Origin: Pseudomonadota bacterium
GTDB lineage: Bacteria > Bdellovibrionota > UBA1018 > CAIMNF01
NCBI GenBank assembly: GCA_027486675.1
Contig: JAIXOQ010000004.1
Location: 124,001 to 188,000 of the forward strand
Reading direction: 5' to 3'
DNA length: 64,000 nucleotides
The translations under genes were made by a program, and so were the position numbers. The first letter of the stretch is position 1, and each line of letters starts with the position of its first letter. The notes below the pieces were generated by a model. It was not told the DNA's origin. It saw nothing but the letters and a program-made list of their open reading frames with translations, and ran no database searches. This document shows positions 26,958-40,729 of the stretch, piece by piece.

Positions 26958-27698
26958 ATGCTTCCCGAGATGAACGGCCTGGGATGGGTGACAATTTTTT
27001 GGCTCTTTGGTGCAAATGCTCTCGCAAAACCGCTTTGGGATAGCTGGTATCTCGTCTATGCCGACGGGATCACGCCCTCTTCTTATTATAGCGAAAAGGT
27101 CTACATTCAGGGAAATGAACTCAGAATTCAATTAAACCAATATAACAAGACGGATGAGGGGCTCGAAGAAGAGCATCTGGGCTCGGCGGCCCGCGACCTC
27201 CCTGACCTTCCTCCTCTCAAAGTGACATTCCAGAAAACCTCCCCCTTTGGCAATGTCGCGATCGATGGCGCCTTGGATCAAACCGGGAAGATCTTCGTGA
27301 GCCGGGTGGCGCACGGAAAAGAGCCGCGCCGAGTGCTTAAGGCAGAGATGCAGCCCAAACTTTTCTTCGTCTCCATGTTTCCAGCATGGCTCGGAAAAAA
27401 TGCGAAACGCATCAACTCGGTTCAGCAAACTGCTTTTACCGTGCTCCTTGAGGACAAAATCGACACTCAAGTGCCCATCGCCGACGGCAGCGTTATGGAA
27501 ACACAAGGGGACGTGATTTCAAAAAACACAGGCTCACGAAAACTCAGAGTGAAATTCCAAGGCGACACTCAGTTCTGGTGGGTTATGCCGAATGGCGAAA
27601 TGGTCCGGATGGAAACGCCGAGCACGCGCTCGGTCATTGAAAAGACGACCCGAGAAAAAGCGATCGCTGCGTTCCTGCCTCCAGCAAAAGGGAAATGA
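26958..27698 (+). CDS. Secreted protein of unknown function
   Basis: 246 residues with a signal peptide ending in ANALA (start ATG 26958 or 26970). The mature protein is beta-rich, with segments such as WYLVYADGITPSSYYSEKVYIQGNELRIQLNQ and FQGDTQFWWVMPNGEMVRME. No family is recognised. It is coupled to nagZ by a 4-bp overlap, which hints at an envelope or cell-wall role. Divergent from tadC with a very short gap. Confidence 0.7.
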   Translation: MLPEMNGLGWVTIFWLFGANALAKPLWDSWYLVYADGITPSSYYSEKVYIQGNELRIQLNQYNKTDEGLEEEHLGSAARDLPDLPPLKVTFQKTSPFGNVAIDGALDQTGKIFVSRVAHGKEPRRVLKAEMQPKLFFVSMFPAWLGKNAKRINSVQQTAFTVLLEDKIDTQVPIADGSVMETQGDVISKNTGSRKLRVKFQGDTQFWWVMPNGEMVRMETPSTRSVIEKTTREKAIAAFLPPAKGK

Positions 27699-28672
27699 TG
27701 ACGGACATTCATGAGCTTGTGTTTCAGGCATTTGATGGCGCAACACTTGGAGGAAATGCTCTGCATTTTGCTGAGAAGTTTAGACCTGGTGCATTTATCC
27801 TCTTTTCTAAAAATGGAAATGCCGTCGATAAAGATCAAATACGGGGTCTATGCGCCGAGATCCAAGCCTTACATCCGAAGTCTTTACCGGCGCTGATTTC
27901 GGTAGATCAAGAAGGCGGCCGCGTTCAAAGATTCAGACAGGGATTTACCAGGCTTCCGCCTGCCGACCAAGCCGGAAAACTCAGCGATGAAGACTTGCGG
28001 GTTCTGACCGAAATCCAAGCCCGTGAACTGAGAAATGTCGGCATCAATTTAAATTTTGCGCCCGTGGCCGACGTGAATACGAATCCAAACAACCCAATCA
28101 TCGGGGATCGGGCGTATTCAAGCGATCCTACCGATGCTGCCCGAGCCGTTCGTATCTTAGTCCAGGAACATCTCAAGTGGGGCGTGCTCCCTTGCATCAA
28201 GCACTTCCCCGGTCACGGCGATACACACTTAGACACACACCTTGCGCTCGCTCGGGTCGACACTTCGCTCTCTCAGCTGCAGTCCCGGGAATGGCTTCCC
28301 TTTCAAGCTGGCATTGGTGCAGGCGCTCCCCTCGTGATGACCGCTCACATCGTCACAGCTGCTTTAGATCCCGATCTTCCAGCGACCTTAAGCTCGCGTG
28401 CTCTAGATCCGCTGAGGACCTTACTGGGTTTCTCTGGGCTCATCGTTAGCGATGACATGCAGATGAAAGCTATTGAGGACAATTACGGCAAGGATGAGGC
28501 ACTCGTCCGTGCACTTCAGGCGGGATGCGATCTATTACTAACGAATACTGAGGAAGGCCACTTCACTGCGGTTGAGTCTCTGCGCAAAAGCGTGCGAGAC
28601 GGCCTGCTTTCGGATCAGCTCATGGAGAAGAAATTGCTGCGTGTCCGTGAATTACGGCGTGGCCTGAGCTAA
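27695..28672 (+). CDS. nagZ: Beta-N-acetylhexosaminidase, GH3
   Basis: A 325-residue single-domain GH3 enzyme of NagZ type, which removes N-acetylglucosamine from muropeptides in peptidoglycan recycling, in the cytoplasm. Motifs are ISVDQEGGRVQRF, the His-Asp acid/base loop KHFPGHGDTHLDTH and the nucleophile region IVSDDMQMKAI. The last 53 bp overlap, on the opposite strand, the 3' end of the NuoM/N-like gene. Confidence 0.93.
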   Translation: MMTDIHELVFQAFDGATLGGNALHFAEKFRPGAFILFSKNGNAVDKDQIRGLCAEIQALHPKSLPALISVDQEGGRVQRFRQGFTRLPPADQAGKLSDEDLRVLTEIQARELRNVGINLNFAPVADVNTNPNNPIIGDRAYSSDPTDAARAVRILVQEHLKWGVLPCIKHFPGHGDTHLDTHLALARVDTSLSQLQSREWLPFQAGIGAGAPLVMTAHIVTAALDPDLPATLSSRALDPLRTLLGFSGLIVSDDMQMKAIEDNYGKDEALVRALQAGCDLLLTNTEEGHFTAVESLRKSVRDGLLSDQLMEKKLLRVRELRRGLS

Positions 28673-29798
28673 GAATCCGCTCTAACCACAACCCTGGCAT
28701 GAGCCCCAAGATCAACCCGATCACCACAATGCTTTGGTAGATTCTGCGGTGCCCATTGGGGAGCCGGGATTCCCGTGTTTCATCGGAATTTGCGGGCCCA
28801 AGAAACAGGTGGGAATAGACGTGATAAAGCGCAATCACGTTGAGACTCCCTAGGGCAATGAGGACCAGGGTCTTCGATAGAGATAGCTCTAAAAATCCGT
28901 GAAAAAGAATATCCTCACCCAAGAAAGTTAATCCTCCAGGAATCCCAACCCACAGCAAGGAGACAACAACAAAAAATCTATGCTCTTCTGGGAATCTCAG
29001 CGCCAGGCCCCTATACCCCATTAACTTTGTGGCACCTTCGATATGAATCAGCCTCGAGATCACACCAAATAGAATCACACTGCTCCACTGAAGGGAGAGG
29101 ACCATAGGCAAAAGCGCACTGTGGGTCAACTCATTGCCAAAAGCCGCAGCCAAGATCAGAGAACTCTGTGCAAAGAAAATCGCCCACACCGCACCGGCCG
29201 TCTCCGTGATCACACAAGCAGAAATGGCTCTATAACAAGCGTGAATCAGAAAGAATGAAAATAGGACAAAGGACTGCGAGTCGGTCAAAGCCCCTCGATC
29301 AAATCCAATCTTTTCAATGAGAGCCAAACCCGGGAGAGCTGCAAAGCAGGTAACCAGATTCCCCCAGCTCCTTGAGGCCTGGAGCAGAAATACAATTCCG
29401 TGAAATGGAAAAATTCCGGCTACTACGAGCACCAGGCCAATCAGTGGCCATCGATAGTACTCAGAGGCCAGCAACCACTCTTTCGAGTCAAACGGTGCAA
29501 AGATGGCGGCATAATGTTCTGAATGGAGGGCCATCGCGACTACAATGGCGCCAGCAAAAAGAGCGGCAAATGAGCCAAGTACCCCACGCTCTTTCTTCCC
29601 TGCTCTTTCAAAAAATAGACTACCTAACCAGATGCAGCACAGGGCCAGGCAGGCAATACCGAAGTTAGGGGCGAGCCAGAGGAGAATCGATCCAACTGCA
29701 ATTGAAGAAGATCCGAAACGCCAGAATTCAGGATCCAATCGATCCACGACCAAAGTCATCAGTGCTGTTGATAAGGCGATCCACAAAGAAAACGTCAT
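28620..29798 (-). CDS. NuoM/N-like membrane protein, accessory subunit of the Dab system
   Basis: 392 residues with about ten to twelve hydrophobic helices. Similarity to antiporter-like complex I subunits is seen in FPFHGIVFLL (~130-139) and the C-terminal VGIPGGLTFLGEDILFHGF. At the place of the channel lysine five residues before the conserved proline (P131) there is a valine (V126), and the WLPDAxxxAP stretch is lost, so a complete proton half-channel is doubtful. ATGA overlap with dabB. Characterised Dab/Mps systems have one such subunit; this is an extra one. Confidence 0.72.
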   Translation of the reverse strand: MTFSLWIALSTALMTLVVDRLDPEFWRFGSSSIAVGSILLWLAPNFGIACLALCCIWLGSLFFERAGKKERGVLGSFAALFAGAIVVAMALHSEHYAAIFAPFDSKEWLLASEYYRWPLIGLVLVVAGIFPFHGIVFLLQASRSWGNLVTCFAALPGLALIEKIGFDRGALTDSQSFVLFSFFLIHACYRAISACVITETAGAVWAIFFAQSSLILAAAFGNELTHSALLPMVLSLQWSSVILFGVISRLIHIEGATKLMGYRGLALRFPEEHRFFVVVSLLWVGIPGGLTFLGEDILFHGFLELSLSKTLVLIALGSLNVIALYHVYSHLFLGPANSDETRESRLPNGHRRIYQSIVVIGLILGLMPGLWLERILSSGHAVIHGHAAISSP

Positions 29799-31048
29799 CG
29801 TTTACCTCGCATTCGGAAACTCAGTTCTGAGCTGATCGATTCTTCCCACCTCACGATCGTAAGAAAGAAGTTCAGGATACGGGAAGTGAGTCGGATCTGA
29901 ATCGCATCCACAAAAAATCCATGAACAGACCAGATCAGGAACTTCCGTCGCCACGCAGAACGGATTGGCTCACGTTCGGTCCTGTTCTTTAACCAATCGT
30001 AAGCGACCGGGTTTTCTTGAAAGTCTTGAAGAAGTGAAGAAGCCCGCAAAAACTGCCAGGTCCTAAAGAATGCATGGAGGCACAAATGCACCAGGGCAAT
30101 ATTGAGCCAACCGAGGGAAAGCTCAATGTACAGAAGAGAGACCCCAGCCATCGAGGCATAAGCGAGATGTGTTTTAGCATCGGGACGTGAACGCCCAACA
30201 GAAACCGCAAACAGGAGTGTCGCTAGGCCAAGAATTCCCATCGCAATCCTAAGAGCAGAAACATCCATCCAAATTTCTGGCCGACGCAACAAGGTGATCA
30301 CACCTAAGTGAATGGCTACCCCGCCGTAGAAAGCAGCACTGGATGCTGTCGGCCCTTCTACTGCGCGAGGCAGCCAAGGAGAGAACGGCAGCTGTGCCGA
30401 CTTTGCTAACGTCCCGAAAACGAGTAGCGATGCACCTAGCCAGTGCGCAGAACCGTGGTGATGCGAAACAGCTGTGGCAGCAAGCATTCCAACATCCCCC
30501 ATGCGGTAGTAAATCAGCGCACGAAAACTATTTTCTACAGCGCGGGGATTATGTCTAAAAAATGAAATGAGAAATACAGAAGCCAGTCCCGTGAGTTCCC
30601 AACCGATGCAGTGCACATCCAGGTTCCCGGAAAGGGAGATTAACGTGACACCGAATCCGAGCAAAGAAAGTACGAAAAAGAAACGGTCTCTGCCGGGATC
30701 CTTCACAAACGAAGGCAATGAAAAACGGGTAATGACAAGAAGGATGAATGACGAAAGCAAAAGGAATGAAGTGCCAGGGATATCTAAAGCGAAACGAAAA
30801 TCTAAGGAGTATCCATGGATATGCAGCCAACTTCCCAAATCAAATACTTGCCCCCAGTGCCCTCCTTGCCAGCAAAGTGCAAAAAGAATTGCCTTGAGCA
30901 GCACATGACTTGAGGCGGTAGTCATTGCCCAGCGAAGAACAGCCCTTTCACCTAACTTGACGCCAAAAAAAATACAGCTGCCTGCAATCAGTACTGTCAA
31001 AAAATGGGAGAGAACAATGAAGGCAACAAGATTCTGCACATCAAACAT
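29795..31048 (-). CDS. dabB: DabB-like (NuoL-type) membrane subunit of inorganic-carbon uptake
   Basis: 417 residues from ATG 31048 (AGGG seven bases upstream; overlaps the dabA stop by 8 bp). It has the proton-antiporter core with the channel glutamate in GWELTG (E151) and the lysine in FGTLAKSAQLPFSPWLPRAVEGPT (K216). It resembles NuoL but no other complex I gene is near. Pairing with DUF2309 identifies it as DabB/MpsA, which is thought to couple cation flow to CO2 hydration by DabA. It is shorter than most DabB proteins. Confidence 0.85.
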   Translation of the reverse strand: MFDVQNLVAFIVLSHFLTVLIAGSCIFFGVKLGERAVLRWAMTTASSHVLLKAILFALCWQGGHWGQVFDLGSWLHIHGYSLDFRFALDIPGTSFLLLSSFILLVITRFSLPSFVKDPGRDRFFFVLSLLGFGVTLISLSGNLDVHCIGWELTGLASVFLISFFRHNPRAVENSFRALIYYRMGDVGMLAATAVSHHHGSAHWLGASLLVFGTLAKSAQLPFSPWLPRAVEGPTASSAAFYGGVAIHLGVITLLRRPEIWMDVSALRIAMGILGLATLLFAVSVGRSRPDAKTHLAYASMAGVSLLYIELSLGWLNIALVHLCLHAFFRTWQFLRASSLLQDFQENPVAYDWLKNRTEREPIRSAWRRKFLIWSVHGFFVDAIQIRLTSRILNFFLTIVRWEESISSELSFRMRGKR

Positions 31049-33449
31049 TCGCACGCCCTACTCTATTTTTGGTGGGAAAGACTTCCTGCCAACCGCAAGC
31101 CGTGTATTGCTCGTAATAGTCCGAGTCTGGATCCAACCGGATGAGATGGATCCATTTGCCTACCGTTAAGCGCTTCAATCGATCGTTTCCAAAGAATACC
31201 TTTTCAACATTCTCCCGAGTTGCTTCCACGATCATAGAAGGACGCAGCGGCTCATGGATCTCTGTCATCTGCGTGGCTAAGCCAAACCGAAGATCGCTCT
31301 TTGATCCGGTCATTACCCCCAACAGAGACGTGACATTGAGCGGTAGTTTCGACCCTGCCCCTAGGCGATTTGTATCCACTGTAGAGAAGTAGTAGTCGAG
31401 AGCGATATTGGCGGCCACAGGGACTGTCCCCATCACAGATTGCTCCAAAACTGTTCCATCGAAGTCGATAGCGGGATCATAAGAGACCAAAAAGGCACGC
31501 CGGTCGAGATCTGCCCCACGGTAACGTGAGCGACGACCCACGATGCATGCGGCCACTCTGGAATGCCCATATTCTGGACGTGGCTGAGCAAGGTCCCGAG
31601 ATCGAATGATCGCGTGCTCAAGTGCACGCTCTGGGCTTAAGTTTGCTGGTGCATCCGCAAACCAGCGCATGCGTTCCATGACATGCCCCTTGCGGGCTTC
31701 ATCAAGTGCCTCTTTAAGACTGGCCCATATCGCAGCAGACGGAGGAGATAAATCGGACTTGAGTTCGATTTCATCCGAACAAGTGTCGTGGGTCGCAGAG
31801 ACGAATACCGTCTCATCTGGAATCAAGAAGCCTCTAGACTTTAATATCGCTCTGACATTTGCGTCATTTGCCATCTCACAAAATGCACGAGAATTAGGCG
31901 CACCATGATTCCCGCCACATGCACCACAGCCATAGGCCTGTCGGAACGGATTGTTCGTCATCGTTGAACCATGACCTAAGATCACTACTACTTTTGCAAG
32001 CTTTTGACCCGGACCGTGATTCACAAGGAGAGACCGAACAATGTCCGCTTGCTCCGTCAAAGAAAACCCATTCTCGCCGTTGAGTATGAATTTCGTCTTT
32101 CGCTTCGATTTCAGCAGTGACCCTAAAAACTTACCCAAGCGGAGTTCAAGTCTGGGTGATGCTTTCAACATCATGGGAACGAAGGTAATCAGACCGCCCA
32201 TCAACGCCAATAAAAGGCCTCGAAGTTCAGTTCGGCTCGCAGAGTAAAATTGAACTGCATAGGTGTGCCGCATGGTCCCCGGTATAGATCCATCTAAAGC
32301 CACTTCATCCACATGCCGTCGGGGCTGCACGACCGGTGGGCACTGGTTACGGCGGCGGCGCTCCCCATAACCTTTAAACTTCATATCGACATAAAAAAAA
32401 CCTGGTACTCCAAAGGTCTCGAATTCCGGTGCGACCAACTCAAGTCGCCGACGGAGTGACTCTTCCCGATCATCCATACAAAACAAAATCTGGGCCTCTC
32501 TCTGCGGCTCCTGAAGAGTCGGAAGGGTTCTCATGCGACTTATCAATGAACGCTGAATCGCTCGCTCCGATGCGGCTTGCCAAACCATCAGTCTCTCCAG
32601 GGCAGCTTTCTTCGCCTCAGGCGAAAGCCTCTTCTTTTCATCGATCTCCGGCAGGCGTTTATAGATTCCAATGTAAGCGCGATGAAGTGAATGCTCGCAG
32701 AGCAACCTTACTGCAAGCCAATCCAAGAGATCTAAATCCCAAGAGAAAATCGGTGCCTGCTCTGGCACCGCAGCAAGACGCTGGATCATGCCCCCCCATC
32801 CGGGGAGGTCAAATAGGATCTCTTCAAGATAATCGCGATGAAGTTCAAGAGGCAGGTCCACTTGTTTCAGCTCAGCTTCAATGATCTGTGAGCTATTAAG
32901 ATTTAAGTCCTTGTAATACTGAACTGCCTTTTTAATTTCGGAATAGCCATCCTGCACCGCTCCCGGCAAAGCATCCACCCAAAGACAAAATGCGCCCCAA
33001 AGAGAAAAATTCTTACCGAACGGCGCTCGCGTATCGCTCATCCCCTGATCCAGCAAAACGGAAATGAATGGAATCAAAAGATCGTGAATGCGTCGATTGA
33101 ATGGCTCAAGGGCGCCACGCTCCCAGCGCTGTGCGACCCTCAGGGACTTTGGAATCAAAACACCGGCATCAATCGGCTTAGTATGAATCAACTCCATTTC
33201 GTCGAGCTGGCGTCCCCCTTTCCGATTGTGCTCCTCAATCGCAAAACGGAGGTCAGAGGCTTCAATGCGACCCTTTTGAAACATCTTCCGGAACCGATGT
33301 TCCGACCAGATACTCTTTGCTCGATAGCGTTTGGAAATCTCTAAGAGCGCATCCGGAAACGCAAACCGCTCAAAGGGTTGCATCGGGTTATTATGAACAA
33401 AAGTATTGAGCGGATTCTGAAAAGGGAGAAATTCACCGATACCTTTCAT
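31041..33449 (-). CDS. dabA: DabA, DUF2309 zinc carbonic-anhydrase-like subunit
   Basis: 802 residues. The beta-carbonic-anhydrase-like zinc site described for DabA is intact: C324 and D326 in ILFCMDDREES, H493 in LGHGSTMTNNP and C508 in YGCGACGGNHG; the spacing H493 to C508 (15) equals that in the Halothiobacillus protein. The N-terminal NPLNTFVHNNPMQ motif is also typical. It is a peripheral membrane protein expected to hydrate CO2 vectorially together with DabB. ATGA overlap with the SulP gene. Confidence 0.93.
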   Translation of the reverse strand: MKGIGEFLPFQNPLNTFVHNNPMQPFERFAFPDALLEISKRYRAKSIWSEHRFRKMFQKGRIEASDLRFAIEEHNRKGGRQLDEMELIHTKPIDAGVLIPKSLRVAQRWERGALEPFNRRIHDLLIPFISVLLDQGMSDTRAPFGKNFSLWGAFCLWVDALPGAVQDGYSEIKKAVQYYKDLNLNSSQIIEAELKQVDLPLELHRDYLEEILFDLPGWGGMIQRLAAVPEQAPIFSWDLDLLDWLAVRLLCEHSLHRAYIGIYKRLPEIDEKKRLSPEAKKAALERLMVWQAASERAIQRSLISRMRTLPTLQEPQREAQILFCMDDREESLRRRLELVAPEFETFGVPGFFYVDMKFKGYGERRRRNQCPPVVQPRRHVDEVALDGSIPGTMRHTYAVQFYSASRTELRGLLLALMGGLITFVPMMLKASPRLELRLGKFLGSLLKSKRKTKFILNGENGFSLTEQADIVRSLLVNHGPGQKLAKVVVILGHGSTMTNNPFRQAYGCGACGGNHGAPNSRAFCEMANDANVRAILKSRGFLIPDETVFVSATHDTCSDEIELKSDLSPPSAAIWASLKEALDEARKGHVMERMRWFADAPANLSPERALEHAIIRSRDLAQPRPEYGHSRVAACIVGRRSRYRGADLDRRAFLVSYDPAIDFDGTVLEQSVMGTVPVAANIALDYYFSTVDTNRLGAGSKLPLNVTSLLGVMTGSKSDLRFGLATQMTEIHEPLRPSMIVEATRENVEKVFFGNDRLKRLTVGKWIHLIRLDPDSDYYEQYTACGWQEVFPTKNRVGRANV

Positions 33450-34906
33450 GCCGGAGCGACCTTGTTCCTCTTGTCATCAAAGAGAATCTCTAACGCAGGC
33501 TTCTTGACCTGACCACCCTGGAGTTCGTATCCCACCTTCCATCCGCGGATGGCTTCAACCGCAGCATGATCGATACGTTCGACCTCAAGGATGAGATGGA
33601 CCGTCTTTTTTGCAGGGATCTCAGCTAGCTTTGCCGTAAGCAGAGGCACACACAGGAACGACAACGATCCAGAAACAGTCACGATTTCTGAGCTGCCCTC
33701 TGATTTACGGCTGATCTGAACACGACTGAGCTGCAGCAGTAAGAAAAAGATCGCCAATGCGAATCCGACTCCAATCCCCCACAACAGATTAATGAAAACA
33801 ACACCCAATAATGTTGCAGCATAAACAAAGTGCTCGCGAAATCGCGTCATTTTTTTCATTTCCTTCACCTTAACCAACCCGACTCCGACCGAAATCAAGA
33901 GCGCAGCAAGCACTGCAAGTGGAATCAGCGTTAGGATCCCGGCCAACAACGATGCAAACAGAAGAATCCAGACCCCATGAAGCACTGCCGACCATTGGGT
34001 TTTACCCCCGGCAGAAATGTTCGCAGTAGAGCGGACTATCACCCCCGTGACCGGCAATCCCCCTAAAAGTCCACTGACGACATTTCCAATTCCCTGGGCT
34101 CGGAGCTCCTTATTTAAATTGGCTCGAGGTCCCGAATGCAGCTGATCTGTTGCTACCGCGCAGAGTAGCGATTCAGCACTCGCCACCACACCCAGAGCCA
34201 GTGCAGCCATTAGAAGCTCGATCACACCATAGCCACCCGATGTAGGAGCATGAAAACTAAACAAGGACTGAGCCTCAAGATCCACACGTGCCACATCCAG
34301 GTTGAGAATCGATGCAAGCGCAGTCCCTGCAACAACAGCGATGAGTGAGGCTGGCAGAAATTGCAACTTGGCCTCTATCCATTTTCTCCACGAATACAGA
34401 ACCGCGTAAGTGAAGACACCAATAATGACAGGAGCCATGTTAGCATTGAGGAGGTGATCCGGCAGAGCACCCAGATTCGCAAGAGCTGAGCTGCCGGGCT
34501 TATAACCCAAGACCACATGGATCTGACCCAAAGAAATCAAAATACCAATCCCTGCCAACATCGCATGGATCACCGCTGGTGAAATGATCAACGTCAGTTG
34601 TGCGGCACCCACGATACCAAGCCCAATCTGCAACAAACCCGCGAGCATCCCGATCGAGCACGCCACACCAAAGCCATAGTGTTCAATGAGGCCCGCAACA
34701 ATGACGGTCAAACCAGCTGCAGGGCCGCTGACCTGCAGCGGTGCGCCCCCCAACAATCCCACCAAGATTCCACCAACCCCGGCGGCGATGAGACCCGCCG
34801 TTGGACTGGCTCCGGAGGCGAGTGCAATCCCTAAAGAAAGAGGGAGTGCCACCAAAAAAACGACGAGCGATGCGGGTAGATCTTTCGAAATTATAGGGCG
34901 AGTCAT
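33446..34906 (-). CDS. SulP family anion transporter, probable bicarbonate importer
   Basis: 486 residues from ATG 34906 (ATGA overlap with the preceding gene). Twelve to fourteen predicted helices carry SulP signatures (FLVALPLSLGIALASGASP; LGGAPLQVSGPAAGLTV; GLLGGLPVTGVIVRSTANISAGGKTQ). A C-terminal STAS-like domain lies at ~395-475 (VSGSLSFLCVPLLTAKL...LEVERIDHAAVEAI). SulP proteins move sulfate, bicarbonate or other anions. Cotranscription with dabA and dabB favours bicarbonate, which is an inference. Confidence 0.88.
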   Translation of the reverse strand: MTRPIISKDLPASLVVFLVALPLSLGIALASGASPTAGLIAAGVGGILVGLLGGAPLQVSGPAAGLTVIVAGLIEHYGFGVACSIGMLAGLLQIGLGIVGAAQLTLIISPAVIHAMLAGIGILISLGQIHVVLGYKPGSSALANLGALPDHLLNANMAPVIIGVFTYAVLYSWRKWIEAKLQFLPASLIAVVAGTALASILNLDVARVDLEAQSLFSFHAPTSGGYGVIELLMAALALGVVASAESLLCAVATDQLHSGPRANLNKELRAQGIGNVVSGLLGGLPVTGVIVRSTANISAGGKTQWSAVLHGVWILLFASLLAGILTLIPLAVLAALLISVGVGLVKVKEMKKMTRFREHFVYAATLLGVVFINLLWGIGVGFALAIFFLLLQLSRVQISRKSEGSSEIVTVSGSLSFLCVPLLTAKLAEIPAKKTVHLILEVERIDHAAVEAIRGWKVGYELQGGQVKKPALEILFDDKRNKVAPA

Positions 34907-35469
34907 GAGCAATCTTCTCCTGGATCTGTGCGTAGGTGTTTCACTGCGGTAATTAGAATTCCCAAATCATCGATCAAGCCCATTCCCACCACTGCATCTG
35001 CAATCAGATCGAATGGATTGATGAAGTAAGCAAGCGCTGCGACCGCCACTAAGCGTGCCTTTTGATTTAACGGTTGCCGCAGGGTCTTGTAGAGTTCCTT
35101 CAACAAAAGCCGCAGTTGAACCGGGGCACGGACCTTCTTCATATGCAACTTTGCCCCTTCAACCGTCGCCTCTGCCGAAGCGTCCTCCGGGAGTGCGGCG
35201 GCAAGAGTCTGCATTGTGATTTCGGGTGATTGCTGAAATCCGGACTTGAGTACTGATATCGATTCCACTTCTTCTGCTAAGAGTGGGGCCAGCAAGGAAG
35301 CATACTTTTCTGGGACCTTGATGGCATCCCGCCGGGCTAGAAGCCGTCTCCAAGTCATGTTTGAGACCGGGAGATGCCGGGCAAGATCCTCGGGCGACCA
35401 ATCCTTTTGTTCTAGAAAAGTTCGGAGATCACCAACTGAAATGCCCTTTGAATTTCCAGAAGATCGCAT
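34903..35469 (-). CDS. YkvA-like DUF1232 protein with N-terminal helix-turn-helix-like region
   Basis: 188 residues. The C-terminus has the DUF1232 motif YFINPFDLIADAVVGMGLIDDLG (~149-171). The N-terminal 60 residues look like a small helix-turn-helix (LRTFLEQKDWSPEDLARHLPVSNMTWRRLL), an unusual combination. It is first gene of the carbon-uptake operon, so it could act as regulator or membrane-associated helper; neither is shown. AGAGG precedes the ATG, and an inverted repeat lies 37 bp upstream. Confidence 0.8.
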   Translation of the reverse strand: MRSSGNSKGISVGDLRTFLEQKDWSPEDLARHLPVSNMTWRRLLARRDAIKVPEKYASLLAPLLAEEVESISVLKSGFQQSPEITMQTLAAALPEDASAEATVEGAKLHMKKVRAPVQLRLLLKELYKTLRQPLNQKARLVAVAALAYFINPFDLIADAVVGMGLIDDLGILITAVKHLRTDPGEDCS

Positions 35470-35505
35470 CTAGGTTCTACCTCTGTGTTTTTCATTGTCA
35501 GAGGA

Positions 35506-35525
35506 AAATTCACAAATGTGAATTT
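35506..35525. promoter_or_regulatory. Inverted repeat between mutase gene and carbon-uptake operon
   Basis: AAATTCACA-AA-TGTGAATTT is a perfect 9-bp inverted repeat, 7 bp beyond the methylmalonyl-CoA mutase stop and about 37 bp before the first gene of the Dab operon. It is AT-rich with only short T tracts, so it could be an operator for the downstream operon or a weak terminator. Confidence 0.5.
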
Positions 35526-35531
35526 AAAAAT

Positions 35532-37094
35532 CTAGAACCCAGAATACTCTTGGTATTCCCCGAACACAGAACGCATCGCATCTGCAATTTCACCGAGCGT
35601 ACACTCAGAGGAAACAGCGTGAACCACAGCATCCATGAGGTTTCCGCCGCCTTTAGCGCAGTCCGTCAAACGCAAGAGTGCTGCAGCGGACTCTGTTTGA
35701 TTCCTTCTGGCCCGAAACGCTCGAATGCGCTCACAGGCAGCTTGGCCCACCGCTTCGGATACGCCAAAGTGTTCAACTTTCTGGGAATCTTTTTCTTGGA
35801 AACAATTCACACCCACTACCTTTAAAGTCCCGTGGTCTAAAGCAACTTGGTCCTGATAAGCAGAATTGAGGATCTCATTTTGGATATAGCCGGATTCGAT
35901 ACTGGCGACAGTACCTCCACGCTTTTCGATCTCCTCAAGGTAGGACCAGACTTGCTTTTCAATTTCGTCTGTCAGCGCTTCCACAAAATAGCTGCCGGCC
36001 AAAGGATCCACCGTCTGAGTCACATTCGTCTCATAGGCGATCACTTGCTGCGTCCTTAGCGCAATTCTTGCTGCACGTTCGGTGGGTAGCGAAAGCGCCT
36101 CATCTAACCCATTCGTATGCAGGGACTGCGTGCCACCTAATACGGAAGAAAGCGCCTGAATCGCCACACGCACAACGTTGTTGTCCGGCTGCTGGGCCGT
36201 AAGTGTTGAGCCCGCCGTCTGTGAATGGAAACGGACCATCATGGATCTTGGGTCCTTCGCATGAAAACGTTCTTTCATCAATTTGGCCCAGATCCTTCGG
36301 GCTGCGCGAAACTTTGCGATCTCCTCAAAAAAGTCGCTGTGCACATTGAAGAAAAACGACAACTGACCAGCAAAATCATCAACAGCAAGACCGGCTTTTA
36401 GCGCTGACTCAACATAAGCAATGCCATCTGCAAAAGTGAAAGCAAGTTCCTGAACGGCGTTCGATCCTGCTTCCCGGATGTGGTACCCAGAGATACTGAT
36501 CGGATTCCACTTGGGCGTGTTTTTTGCGCACCAAGCGAACATATCGGTAGTTAACCTCAGGGCGCCTCTGGGCGGATAGATATAGTTTCCGCGAGCAATG
36601 TACTCTTTCAGAATATCATTCTGCACAGTCCCACGAAGATCCTGGGTTGCGCACCCCTGTTCCTTGGCGATCGCAACATAGAAACCCAGCAAAGTAGAGG
36701 CCGTGGCGTTGATTGTCATCGAAGTCGAGACATCGGAAAGCTTGATACCCTGAAAGAGGGTGCGCATTTCGTCCAACGTTGAAATTGAAACCCCAACCTT
36801 ACCTACCTCACCCATGGAGCGTGGATGATCAGGATCGTAGCCCAGTTGAGTCGGTAGATCGAAAGCAACCGATAGACCGGTCGTGCCTTGCGACAAAAGG
36901 TAGTGATAGCGTTTATTGCTCTCTTCCGCGGATGCAAAACCCGCGTACTGACGCATCGTCCAAAGCCGCCCGCGATACATAGTTTTCTGCACACCACGAG
37001 TGAATGGATATTCGCCTGGAGACTCTGGACCGTATTTCTCCTGAACAGTAATCCCGGAACGAGTCACAAAATTTTCGATCTTTTTATCAGCCAA
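35532..37094 (-). CDS. Methylmalonyl-CoA mutase, large (catalytic) subunit without cobalamin domain
   Basis: 520 residues: the TIM-barrel substrate-binding domain of the family ([48 protein letters not shown]). Y50 and R168 match the Tyr89/Arg207 pair of the Propionibacterium enzyme at constant offset; isobutyryl-CoA mutases have Phe and Gln there, so succinyl/methylmalonyl-CoA is the likely substrate. The C-terminal B12-binding domain (DxHxxG) is absent and must be supplied by another gene outside the window. It overlaps the biotin-carrier gene by 8 bp. Confidence 0.92.
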
Positions 37095-37608
37095 AGTAGA
37101 TCAGCTCCGCACCCGCTTCAATAGTTGCACCTGTTTCCACAAGCACTTTGCGCACGACCGCGTCTTCCTGCGCCTTCATCTCATTCTCCATCTTCATCGC
37201 TTCCATCACGAGCAAAGCCTGCCCCTTAACCACCGAATCCCCTGCTTTCACAAGGACCTTTAAGATCTTTCCAGGCATTTGGGACTTAAGCTTCCCACCC
37301 TTTTTCACCCGTGCACCGGCAGTGATTGTGTCTTCACCGTCCTTTTGAAATCGCACTTGGGAAACATGCACGCTACTGTTTCGGCCGATCAAACTGTATC
37401 GAGGCAACCCGGCGTCCTGATTTTCTTTCCGCCAATCGTACCCCACCACGCGGTCACCAAAATCGAGGGTTATCCCTTGTTGATCCCTGACGTACTTCAA
37501 GGATACCTCTTTACCTTGGACTCTGAGCCTCAATTCGCCCGAGCCAGCTTGAGGCAAAGATAGAAACTCAATTTCAATCCCTTGCACCTTACCGCGCATC
37601 AAAGTCAT
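37087..37608 (-). CDS. Biotin carboxyl carrier subunit of acyl-CoA carboxylase
   Basis: 173 residues. The N-terminal ~100 residues form a linker/adaptor domain, and the C-terminal biotinyl domain carries [10 protein letters not shown] with biotin lysine K139. The ATG has a strong AGGAGG site and overlaps the biotin carboxylase stop (ATGA). It is separate from the biotin carboxylase, whereas many propionyl-CoA carboxylase alpha chains fuse the two. Confidence 0.93.
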
Positions 37609-39077
37609 GACAGCACCTCCTGAGCAGGGAGCTGCTGAAGAATTGAAAGGGCAATCGCACTACTCAGATCGATTGCTGAGCTAGCGTCCGCTGTGAGTTC
37701 AGGGTTCTTTGGAATCAGATCCGTCGTCGTGCTACCGGTGATCGCATCTTTATTTCGCACCAACCTTCGCAAGAACGTGAGGTTCGTTTTTAGGCTGCCA
37801 ATCTCAGTGCCATCTCTCTTTTTTGGCGCCTCAATCGATAACTCATCGAGAGCCACCCGCATGCGACCTACAGCTTCAGTCCGGGTATTTCCCCAGACAG
37901 AAAGTTTTGCGATCATCGGATCATAAAATCTTGTGACTTCACCCTCGGTGGCAAATGAGCTATCCCACCGAAGAAACGGCCCATTGGGTTGTCGGATGAC
38001 GCCGATTTTTCCAGGCGCTGGCAGGAAGTTCTGTGGATCTTCTGCATAAATTCGAACCTCAATTGAGCTTCCACGAACAGTGATGGCGTCCTGCTTCGGC
38101 AACTGCAGAGTGCCCTCGGCTAAAAGAAGTTGCCACTCCACTAGGTCAACACCCGTGACCCATTCACTCACAGGATGCTCCACTTGAAGGCGAGTATTCA
38201 TCTCTAAGAAATAGAACTCACCCTTTCCATCGACGATGAACTCAAATGTTCCGGCACCAGCATAACGGATTTCTTGAGCCACACGGACTGCGGCATCCTG
38301 CATTTTCTTCCTGGTGCCACCAAAGTTTTCTAAGATCGGTGCGGGAGACTCTTCCCAGACTTTTTGGTGGCGACGTTGAATTGAACATTCACGCTCACCT
38401 AAATGCACCGCACCTCCGCGCCCATCGCCGAAGACCTGGATCTCGACGTGATGAGGTTCGACAATATACTTCTCTACGTAAAGCGAACCGTCCCCGAATG
38501 CGGCTTGTGATTCCCGAGCTGCCGCCTCAAAAGAGGAAGCAAGTTCTGCAGCGCTATCTACACGGCGCATGCCCTTGCCACCGCCGCCAGCAGCAGCTTT
38601 CAGCAGCACTGGGTAACCGACATCGCGCGCAAAGGCGAGTGCTGCTTCTGCATTCGGCACCGCACCAGGGCTTCCGGGCACGCGCGGCATCTTGAGTCGA
38701 TCTACCGTTCTGCGTGCTTCAATTTTATCCCCCATCACGCGCATGGAGTCAGCACTTGGGCCGACAAATACCATGCCGGCCTTTTCTACTGCCTCAACAA
38801 AGTGGGGCCGCTCACTTAAGAACCCGTAACCTGGGTGTATGTATCGCGCTCCAGTCTGTTTCGCTGCAGCTATGATCTTCTCGACAACAAGGTAGCTATC
38901 TTTGGGCTCTATTCCACCGATTGCGATTGTATGATCCGCGTACTTAGCGTGTTCAGAAAATCGATCCGCATCGGATACGACAGCGACCACTGGGAACCCT
39001 AAACGACGCGCAGTGCGCGCGATTCGAATGGCAATCTCGCCCCTATTTGCGATCAAAACTGGCTCACGGTTTTTCAT
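37605..39077 (-). CDS. Biotin carboxylase subunit of acyl-CoA (propionyl-CoA) carboxylase
   Basis: 490 residues with the BC N-domain ([21 protein letters not shown]), the ATP-grasp glycine loop ([13 protein letters not shown]), [14 protein letters not shown] and a C-terminal domain. It uses ATP and bicarbonate to carboxylate biotin on the adjacent carrier. Its position between the carboxyltransferase and carrier genes, with 4-bp overlaps on both sides and the mutase downstream, points to propionyl-CoA rather than acetyl-CoA carboxylation. Confidence 0.93.
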
Positions 39078-40681
39078 AGTGGAATATTCCCGTGCTTACG
39101 GCTTGGGCGGACTTCCAACTTATTTGCAAGCAACTCAAGACCACGGATCAAACGCAGCCGCGTCCACTCCGGGCGGAGCACTTCATCGATGTAACCCAGT
39201 TCAGCCGCTTTGTATGGATTCGCAAATTTGTTTTTGTATTCTTCAACCAGCCGAGCACGCACCTCAGCGGTATTTCCTTTCGCTTCGCTATCGGCGATCT
39301 CTTTACGGAATAGGATATTGATCGCGCCCTCTGGACCCATGACCGCGATCTCTGCATTTGGATAAGCGAAGTTGAGGTCAGCTCGGATGTGTTTAGAAGC
39401 CATCACATCATAAGCGCCGCCATAAGCCTTACGAGTGATCAAAGTCAGCTTAGGTACAGTGGCCTCGGAAAACGCATAGAGCAACTTCGCGCCGTGCCGA
39501 ATAATGCCGCCAAACTCTTGTGCGGTGCCAGGAAGAAACCCGGGCACATCTACTAGGGTGATGAGTGGAATGTTGAAGGAATCGCAAAAGCGAACAAACC
39601 TTGCCCCTTTTACAGAAGCATTGATGTCCAAACATCCAGCTAAGTGCGCTGGCTGGTTTGCGACAATCCCGACCGATCGGCCGCCTAGACGGGCAAATCC
39701 AACAACCAAGTTTGCGGCATAACCGCTTTGTGTTTCTAAGAACTCCCCATCATCGACGACATCTTCAATGATCTGCCGAACATCATAAGGCTTGTTGCTT
39801 TGCTCAGGGAGGATGCCCGCAATCTTGGTGCACAAGCGATCGATCGGATCTGATTTCTTCAGTGCTGGAGGAGCGACCCGATTGCTTGACGGAATGTAAC
39901 CTAAAAGTTTTTTCACACCATCCAAACATGCCGCCTCACTTGGGTAGACCAGATGCGCAACACCCGATTTTTCTGCGTGCGTTTCTGCGCCGCCTAAGTC
40001 TTCTTTGGTCACCTCTTCGTGCGTCACAGTTTTGATCACGTCAGGACCCGTGACAAACATGAAGGATGTTCCATCCACCATGCAGACGAAGTCAGTGATC
40101 GCTGGACTGTAAACCGCCCCACCAGCGCATGGACCAAGAATCACGCTAATTTGCGGCACGACACCGCTGGCTTGAGTGTTTCGCCAGAAGATCTCTGCAT
40201 ATCCGCCTAAGCTCTCTACGCCCTCTTGAATGCGCGCGCCGCCGGAATCATTGAGCCCGATCACAGGCGCCCCCATCTTAAGCGCGAGATCCATGAGCTT
40301 ACATATTTTTTGCGCATGCGCCCCAGAGAGCGATCCACCAAAGACCGTAAAATCCTGCGAAAAAACGCAAACCTGGCGGCCATCAATCGTGCCGTACCCA
40401 GTCACCACACCATCGCCGTAAACCTTCTGCTGCTCCATGCCAAAGTCTGTACAGCGGTGAGTTACAAACTGATCCAGCTCAACAAAGGATCCTGGATCCA
40501 GCAGTTGATGCACACGTTCGCGGGCGTTCCATTTTCCTTGCTCCCGCTGCTTCGCAAGGCGCGGATGCCCTCCTGCAAGCAATGCTTGGGACTCACGTCG
40601 TTCAAGTTCACCAAAGGCCTTGGAATTCATGGCCTTACGATAGCCGCCGGGGCCTAGAGTTTCAGCCAAAAACTTGACCAT
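39074..40681 (-). CDS. pccB: Propionyl-CoA carboxylase carboxyltransferase (beta) subunit
   Basis: Crotonase-fold carboxyltransferase with typical motifs: [78 protein letters not shown] and [15 protein letters not shown]. The start is uncertain: ATG 40681 (535 residues) or ATG 40630 (518 residues). The latter fits family alignments and would leave 99 bp for divergent promoters; a TTG at 40696 is less likely. First gene of the propionate operon. Confidence 0.92.
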
Positions 40682-40729
40682 CACCCCTATGTTCAATAGC
40701 GGTGATTGAGGGCCTAAACTAATAGAGCC

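Follow-up and report, generated by a model that had tools for sequence, protein, structure and literature searches.

Two sequence classes of Dab proteins and a NuoM-like third subunit in an inorganic-carbon operon of Bdellovibrionota

Among the closest known counterparts of the system considered here is DAB2 of Halothiobacillus neapolitanus (PDB 9rd0), in which the finger residue Glu444 of DabA occupies the place of NuoL K399/D400 and the substitutions E444A and E444Q abolish activity (PMC13144422). A second residue, Leu658, replaces the Gln or His of β-carbonic anhydrases (β-CAs) and is described as strictly conserved across 150 DabA2 homologues, and the same work does not resolve how proton movement is coupled to the hydration of CO2 (PMC13144422). 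An earlier, sequence-only reading of the present DNA held that characterised systems have two components, which is nearly right, although DAB1 of H. neapolitanus adds a small membrane protein (PMC13144422). In 2017 a further operon type, with dabA upstream of dabB and together with SulP (COG0659) and NuoM (COG1008) genes, was described as COGNAT clade C of ybcC on the basis of neighbourhoods alone, with no residue-level or functional class (PMC5700660).

The stretch of DNA analysed here (the window; 64,000 nucleotides) carries on its minus strand, in this order, overlapping genes for a SulP transporter (488 aa; 33446..34912, alternative ATG start 34906), DabA (802 aa; 31041..33449), DabB (419 aa; 29795..31054) and a third, complex-I-like protein (392 aa; 28620..29798). 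With mechanically assigned starts the genes overlap by 4, 14 and 4 bp, and by 4-8 bp if the in-frame ATGs at 34906 (sulP) and 31048 (dabB) are used, which confirms both the four-gene overlapping unit reported earlier and the place of SulP and the extra complex-I-like protein in one unit with dabAB; chance is excluded as the source of this arrangement. The inorganic-carbon cluster grows to five genes once the DUF1232 gene overlapping sulP is counted (188 aa; 34903..35469, minus strand; PF06803, E 9.5e-10). No homologue of that gene was found beside related dab loci. A gap of 62 bp (35470..35531, minus strand) separates the cluster from the preceding genes for an acyl-CoA carboxylase (CT, BC, BCCP) and methylmalonyl-CoA mutase (35532..40696, minus strand), a probable bicarbonate consumer. 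The gap before the DUF1232 gene is strongly structured and possibly a leader or operator: the 76 nt spanning it (35465-35540; RNA fold z -3.9) contain a perfect AAATTCACA/TGTGAATTT inverted repeat, in a single copy that is absent from 12 relatives. Promoter matches are no more frequent than expected by chance, and terminator matches lie slightly above chance. In gene content and order the locus is a new member of the COGNAT clade C operon type; unlike in that description, the NuoM part can, across the loci compared here, be shortened to a reduced gene or be joined to DabB.

The residues named by the 2026 DAB2 structure (PMC13144422) were mapped onto 115 DabA and 82 DabB sequences. Judged by these positions, the Dab proteins split cleanly into two classes, class I being the known DAB2/DAB1/MpsAB type, and the window belongs to the second. 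Glu444 is present in 16/16 class-I DabA and in 0/99 class-II DabA. Since it is the finger residue that assigns the class, the independent support comes from other features that follow the same split: the gene order, the residue at 658 (Leu or His), the DabB residues and the NuoM domain. Position 658 is Leu in 15/15 class-I sequences and His in 95 of 97 from class II; DabB position 151 is Glu in 76/76 class-II proteins and never Glu in class I, and in all class-II sequences scored His260 has become Tyr and Lys347 Arg. The class-I loci sampled have dabB before dabA and no NuoM-like subunit, whereas the window has the opposite order and a NuoM-like gene. Ten named plasmid loci from Proteobacteria, Actinomycetota, Bacillota and Haloarchaea, which form an independent sample, all have dabB first and are all class I (finger Glu, Leu658, His260, Lys347, non-Glu151), and the TM12 motif described below is absent from these ten. 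In class II, by comparison, practically all loci come with a NuoM-type domain whose second TM12 position is acidic (61/61). A DabA tree calculated with the finger columns excluded shows a single, fully supported change of the finger state; therefore, the reciprocity between finger and NuoM domain represents one deep event and not repeated co-variation.

Class II is large, with members in Bdellovibrionota, Myxococcota, Planctomycetota, Acidobacteriota, Bacteroidota and Methylococcaceae, and it breaks both DAB2 rules, the finger Glu444 and the strict Leu658. Although the operon type was already published in 2017, the residue-level division into two classes appears to be new: a search of openly accessible literature found no report of such a split or of a role for the NuoM part.

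The window DabA is a full-length member of PF10070 (598.7 bits against a cut-off of 25, residues 4-767, E 2.4e-179) and shares with DAB2 the fold family, the zinc site and the Asp-Arg dyad. Its C324, D326, R328, H493 and C508 align with C351, D353, R355, H524 and C539 of H. neapolitanus DabA2, and the zinc ligands (Cys2His) together with the dyad are kept in 115/115 aligned DabA, the 99/99 of class II included. Of the four zinc ligands suggested earlier, C324, H493 and C508 hold, but D326 has to be reassigned to the Asp-Arg dyad with R328, where the equivalent Asp of the DAB2 structure sits without being a zinc ligand (PMC13144422). Unlike in DAB2, dabA precedes dabB in the window, and the window protein has Leu416 (codon 32202..32204, minus strand) in place of the finger Glu444 and His629 in place of Leu658. 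The finger acid has not merely shifted, as no conserved acid occurs within about 28 columns in class-II DabA.

DabB is a short NuoL-like protein that matches Proton_antipo_M (Pfam) and ends after TM11 and a terminal helix. As in DAB2, the equivalents of K235, K310 and H339 are conserved. The window protein retains E153, R184, D187, K218 and K294, so the channel Glu and Lys previously ascribed to it are indeed present, although E153 is exactly the Glu missing from characterised DabB2 (Ile151). In addition to E153, the class II marks are Y243 in place of His260 and R331 in place of Lys347. A further difference from DAB2 is that the window DabB appears to lack the TM12-14 region, with a NuoM-like subunit added. 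This absence is consistent with the AF2 model of L027, a Planctomycetota protein in which DabB and the third subunit are naturally fused, because its N part covers NuoL residues 6-582 with only 397 residues aligned (Z 46.9).

The third protein gave no match in Pfam, none in the PDB by single-sequence search, and in NCBIfam a weak match to the C-terminal half of NuoM only. A profile of 27 relatives (A7) matches NuoM/ND4 chains with E down to 1e-93, and the AF2 model (mean pLDDT 75; >85 over most of residues 173-370) superposes on E. coli NuoM (3rko_C) with Z 28.8 and rmsd 3.2 over 350 aligned residues, the fold Z being 28-30 overall. The third protein is thus a NuoM homologue with the NuoM fold. 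Its alignment starts at NuoM residue 84, which leaves roughly the first 80 residues of NuoM without a counterpart. The aligned third-subunit relatives have lost the TM5 Glu of NuoM, no Glu follows the TM5 Trp in the window protein, and the TM7 Lys is replaced by V in the window (VVAGIFPFH) and by R, S or other residues elsewhere; the pair that defines a full proton channel is therefore missing from the window protein. What has been kept is the TM12 motif GxPxxxxFxxEDLLxHG (VGIPGGLTFLGEDILFHG in the window; 28896..28949, minus strand), which places E295 and D296 at the position of NuoM E407 and NuoL K399-D400. In class-II sequences, those of multi-antiporter loci aside, the second acid occurs in 61/61 and the first in 53/61.

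Considered together, the two membrane proteins resemble the NuoM/NuoL pair of complex I, the third subunit by its NuoM fold and TM12 acid, and DabB by NuoL TM1-11 with the TM5 Glu and TM7 Lys. Unlike complex I, the third subunit has lost its own TM5 Glu, TM7 Lys and N-terminal portion, and there is no quinone arm. The third gene is not a stray complex-I NuoM, since the genome's own NuoL/M/N-like antiporter genes form a separate set on another contig.

DabA is sporadic in the phylum of the window (76/368 genomes). This phylum includes Bacteriovoracaceae, since locus L119 matches a Bacteriovoracaceae MAG with full identity over 5.5 kb, and is hence Bdellovibrionota. The strongest matches of the third-subunit profile in that phylum (E < 1e-114) are in dabA-bearing genomes, many of them on the contig of dabA and a few kb away, which likewise speaks against a stray complex-I NuoM. 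Related loci in which dabB follows dabA numbered 72; they were collected through their resemblance to class-II DabA, so the proportions apply to class II alone. In 38 of them the NuoM-like domain is fused to DabB and in 29 it is encoded by a separate gene; of the remaining five, four are truncated at a contig end, and L023 is divergent yet carries FLTTDLIFH. The third gene is hence linked to dabAB well beyond the window, and the three-subunit Dab unit proposed from this locus is well supported by linkage or fusion in 67 of the 72 loci. An unrelated neighbour is ruled out by the same count, four of the other five loci being truncated. The fusions vary in size from about 625 aa in Methylococcaceae and 650 aa (L024) to 808 aa (L027) and 1105 aa (L044, Sorangium), and the common forms of about 625 aa retain just the C-terminal half of the NuoM-like part, which contains TM12.

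A separate arrangement was observed in seven Methylococcaceae operons (L063, L077, L078, L080, L087, L090 and L091), in which a DabA of about 1,090 aa is accompanied by four antiporter-like proteins, one encoded before dabA and DabB plus two more after it. The finger residue of these DabA is D, N or M.

What is read from sequence is the order and linkage of the genes, the fold, the residues kept and lost, and the absence of β-CA, α-CA and RuBisCO; complex formation, proton coupling, CO2 hydration and the role of SulP as an added anion (bicarbonate) carrier are what we infer. The class-II Dab complex is proposed to consist of a zinc, β-CA-like DabA placed on a two-protein complex-I-like membrane module. 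DabB would contribute the half-channel on the cytoplasmic side together with the pair of TM5 Glu and TM7 Lys, its TM12-14 being gone, and the third protein, having lost its own pair, would provide the TM12 acids E295/D296; since each appears to hold what the other lacks, together they could form approximately one working antiporter unit. On the simplest reading, the half-channel acid that the DabA finger supplies in DAB2 would then come from the third subunit, or from what is left of it at the C terminus of a DabB fusion. This role is suggested because class-II DabA lacks the finger acid while a NuoM-type TM12 acid pair has been added, and it is supported by the fusions of about 625 aa, which keep only the TM12 half. 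Protons entering through the antiporter unit would power a unidirectional hydration of CO2 by DabA. Carboxylases, among them the acyl-CoA carboxylase whose genes lie immediately upstream, would draw on the resulting bicarbonate, with the complex standing in for a carbonic anhydrase. We consider the chances of this proposal to be about even. If it is true, the coupling residue moved between subunits during evolution.

Three points bear on how the donor role should be read. The AF2 model of the L027 fusion does not settle where the C domain sits (pTM 0.56), and for that reason we only infer the half-channel geometry. The simple version of the donor model leaves the four-antiporter Methylococcaceae pattern, with D, N or M at the finger, unexplained. 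Finally, the loss of the finger Glu and the presence of the NuoM domain share one tree split, which also counts against it. The wider proposition, that class II is a mechanistically separate energy-coupled carbonic anhydrase in which the β-CA His is kept, coupling runs through a NuoL/NuoM pair and the essential acid has been relocated between subunits, is tentative and falls just short of an even chance. Class II amounts to a natural mutant series, with an apparently relocated acid, the β-CA His in place and channel parts split or fused, and the question of proton coupling therefore becomes directly testable.

The TM5 Glu of NuoL in complex I lies at an inter-subunit interface. Class-II DabB has this Glu and class I has lost it, and the NuoM-like fold spans nearly all of the third protein; both observations would fit a third subunit that stands beside DabB as NuoM stands beside NuoL, modulating or adding proton coupling (stoichiometry) and not completing the DabB channel. 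Against this stand the loss of the third subunit's own half-channel residues and, in many fusions, of the N-terminal half of the NuoM-like part, and we regard this explanation as unlikely, though one to be taken seriously.

The His at position 658 leads to another alternative. As β-CAs have Gln or His where DabA2 has Leu (PMC13144422), the retention of a transition-state-stabilising His in 95/97 class-II DabA could mean that these proteins behave as more ordinary membrane-tethered β-CAs, with coupling weak or absent and uptake performed by SulP, to which a natural SulP-DabA fusion (L056) lends some weight. Yet the substitution L658Q gave DabA2 no free activity (PMC13144422), the conserved channel Lys of DabB and the TM12 acids favour ion coupling, and a same-strand SulP gene occurs in the retrieved flanks of only 22/72 loci, all of which makes this alternative improbable. 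Least probable is a cation/bicarbonate transporter in place of a CO2-hydrating enzyme, modelled on the Na+/HCO3- symport proposed for MpsAB in work cited by PMC13144422, given that all class-II DabA (99/99) retain both the zinc site and the Asp-Arg dyad and that the residues of the sampled MpsAB-type locus place it in class I.

Returning to the proposed energy-coupled complex, the anion carrier belonging to it would be SulP (Sulfate_transp, PF00916, E 1.6e-68). Its best solved relative is BicA (6ki1_A, E 3.6e-35), but it scores only 154.8 bits against the NCBIfam BicA cut-off of 880. In the alignment to 6ki1, E247 and C251 fall at what we take to be the D and T positions of BicA, and R294 is presumably as in anion exchangers. 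The second independent bicarbonate importer claimed for this locus is accordingly no more than a possibility, bicarbonate import by SulP being plausible. The fusion at L056 (246-4421), from a Saprospiraceae MAG, is one polypeptide of 1391 aa and supports a functional link between SulP and DabA. In class-II dab operons of the order, SulP is also adjoined by proteins of 380-410 aa that are alike and without a Pfam match (L019:5161-6348, L023:9267-10409, L024:11589-12821); they have the look of outer-membrane barrels and are possibly a porin for the same anion.

No RuBisCO, β-CA or α-CA was found in the genome, which is 95% complete. The idea that the host is a heterotroph draws its sole support from the missing RuBisCO. 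In the 13-genome family, 3/3 genomes without β-CA have DabA, as against 2/10 with β-CA (Fisher p 0.035, phylogeny uncorrected). The dab operon follows the acyl-CoA carboxylase/methylmalonyl-CoA mutase operon on the same strand, and the interval between the mutase gene and nagZ is syntenic in 13/13 family genomes (window 27695-40696; L132-L143). In this slot one relative (G008) has a LysR gene and class-I dabBA, two (G002 and G012) have a β-CA, and the others have no such gene. The presence of 4/18 such loci in the slot corresponds to p < 1e-6 under random placement, a value weakened by shared ancestry and by the post-hoc slot length. The slot looks like a site for bicarbonate supply beside a bicarbonate-consuming enzyme. 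Because the genome lacks β-CA, α-CA and RuBisCO, and because the slot holds a two-gene Dab or a carbonic anhydrase in relatives, the evidence points to bicarbonate supply for carboxylation as the service of the dab operon. Bacteria without β- or α-CA can thus carry either Dab class at the same chromosomal site by the carboxylase operon. A genome of the same family also contains a class-I DabB-DabA fusion of 1205 aa (L021:3142-6759).
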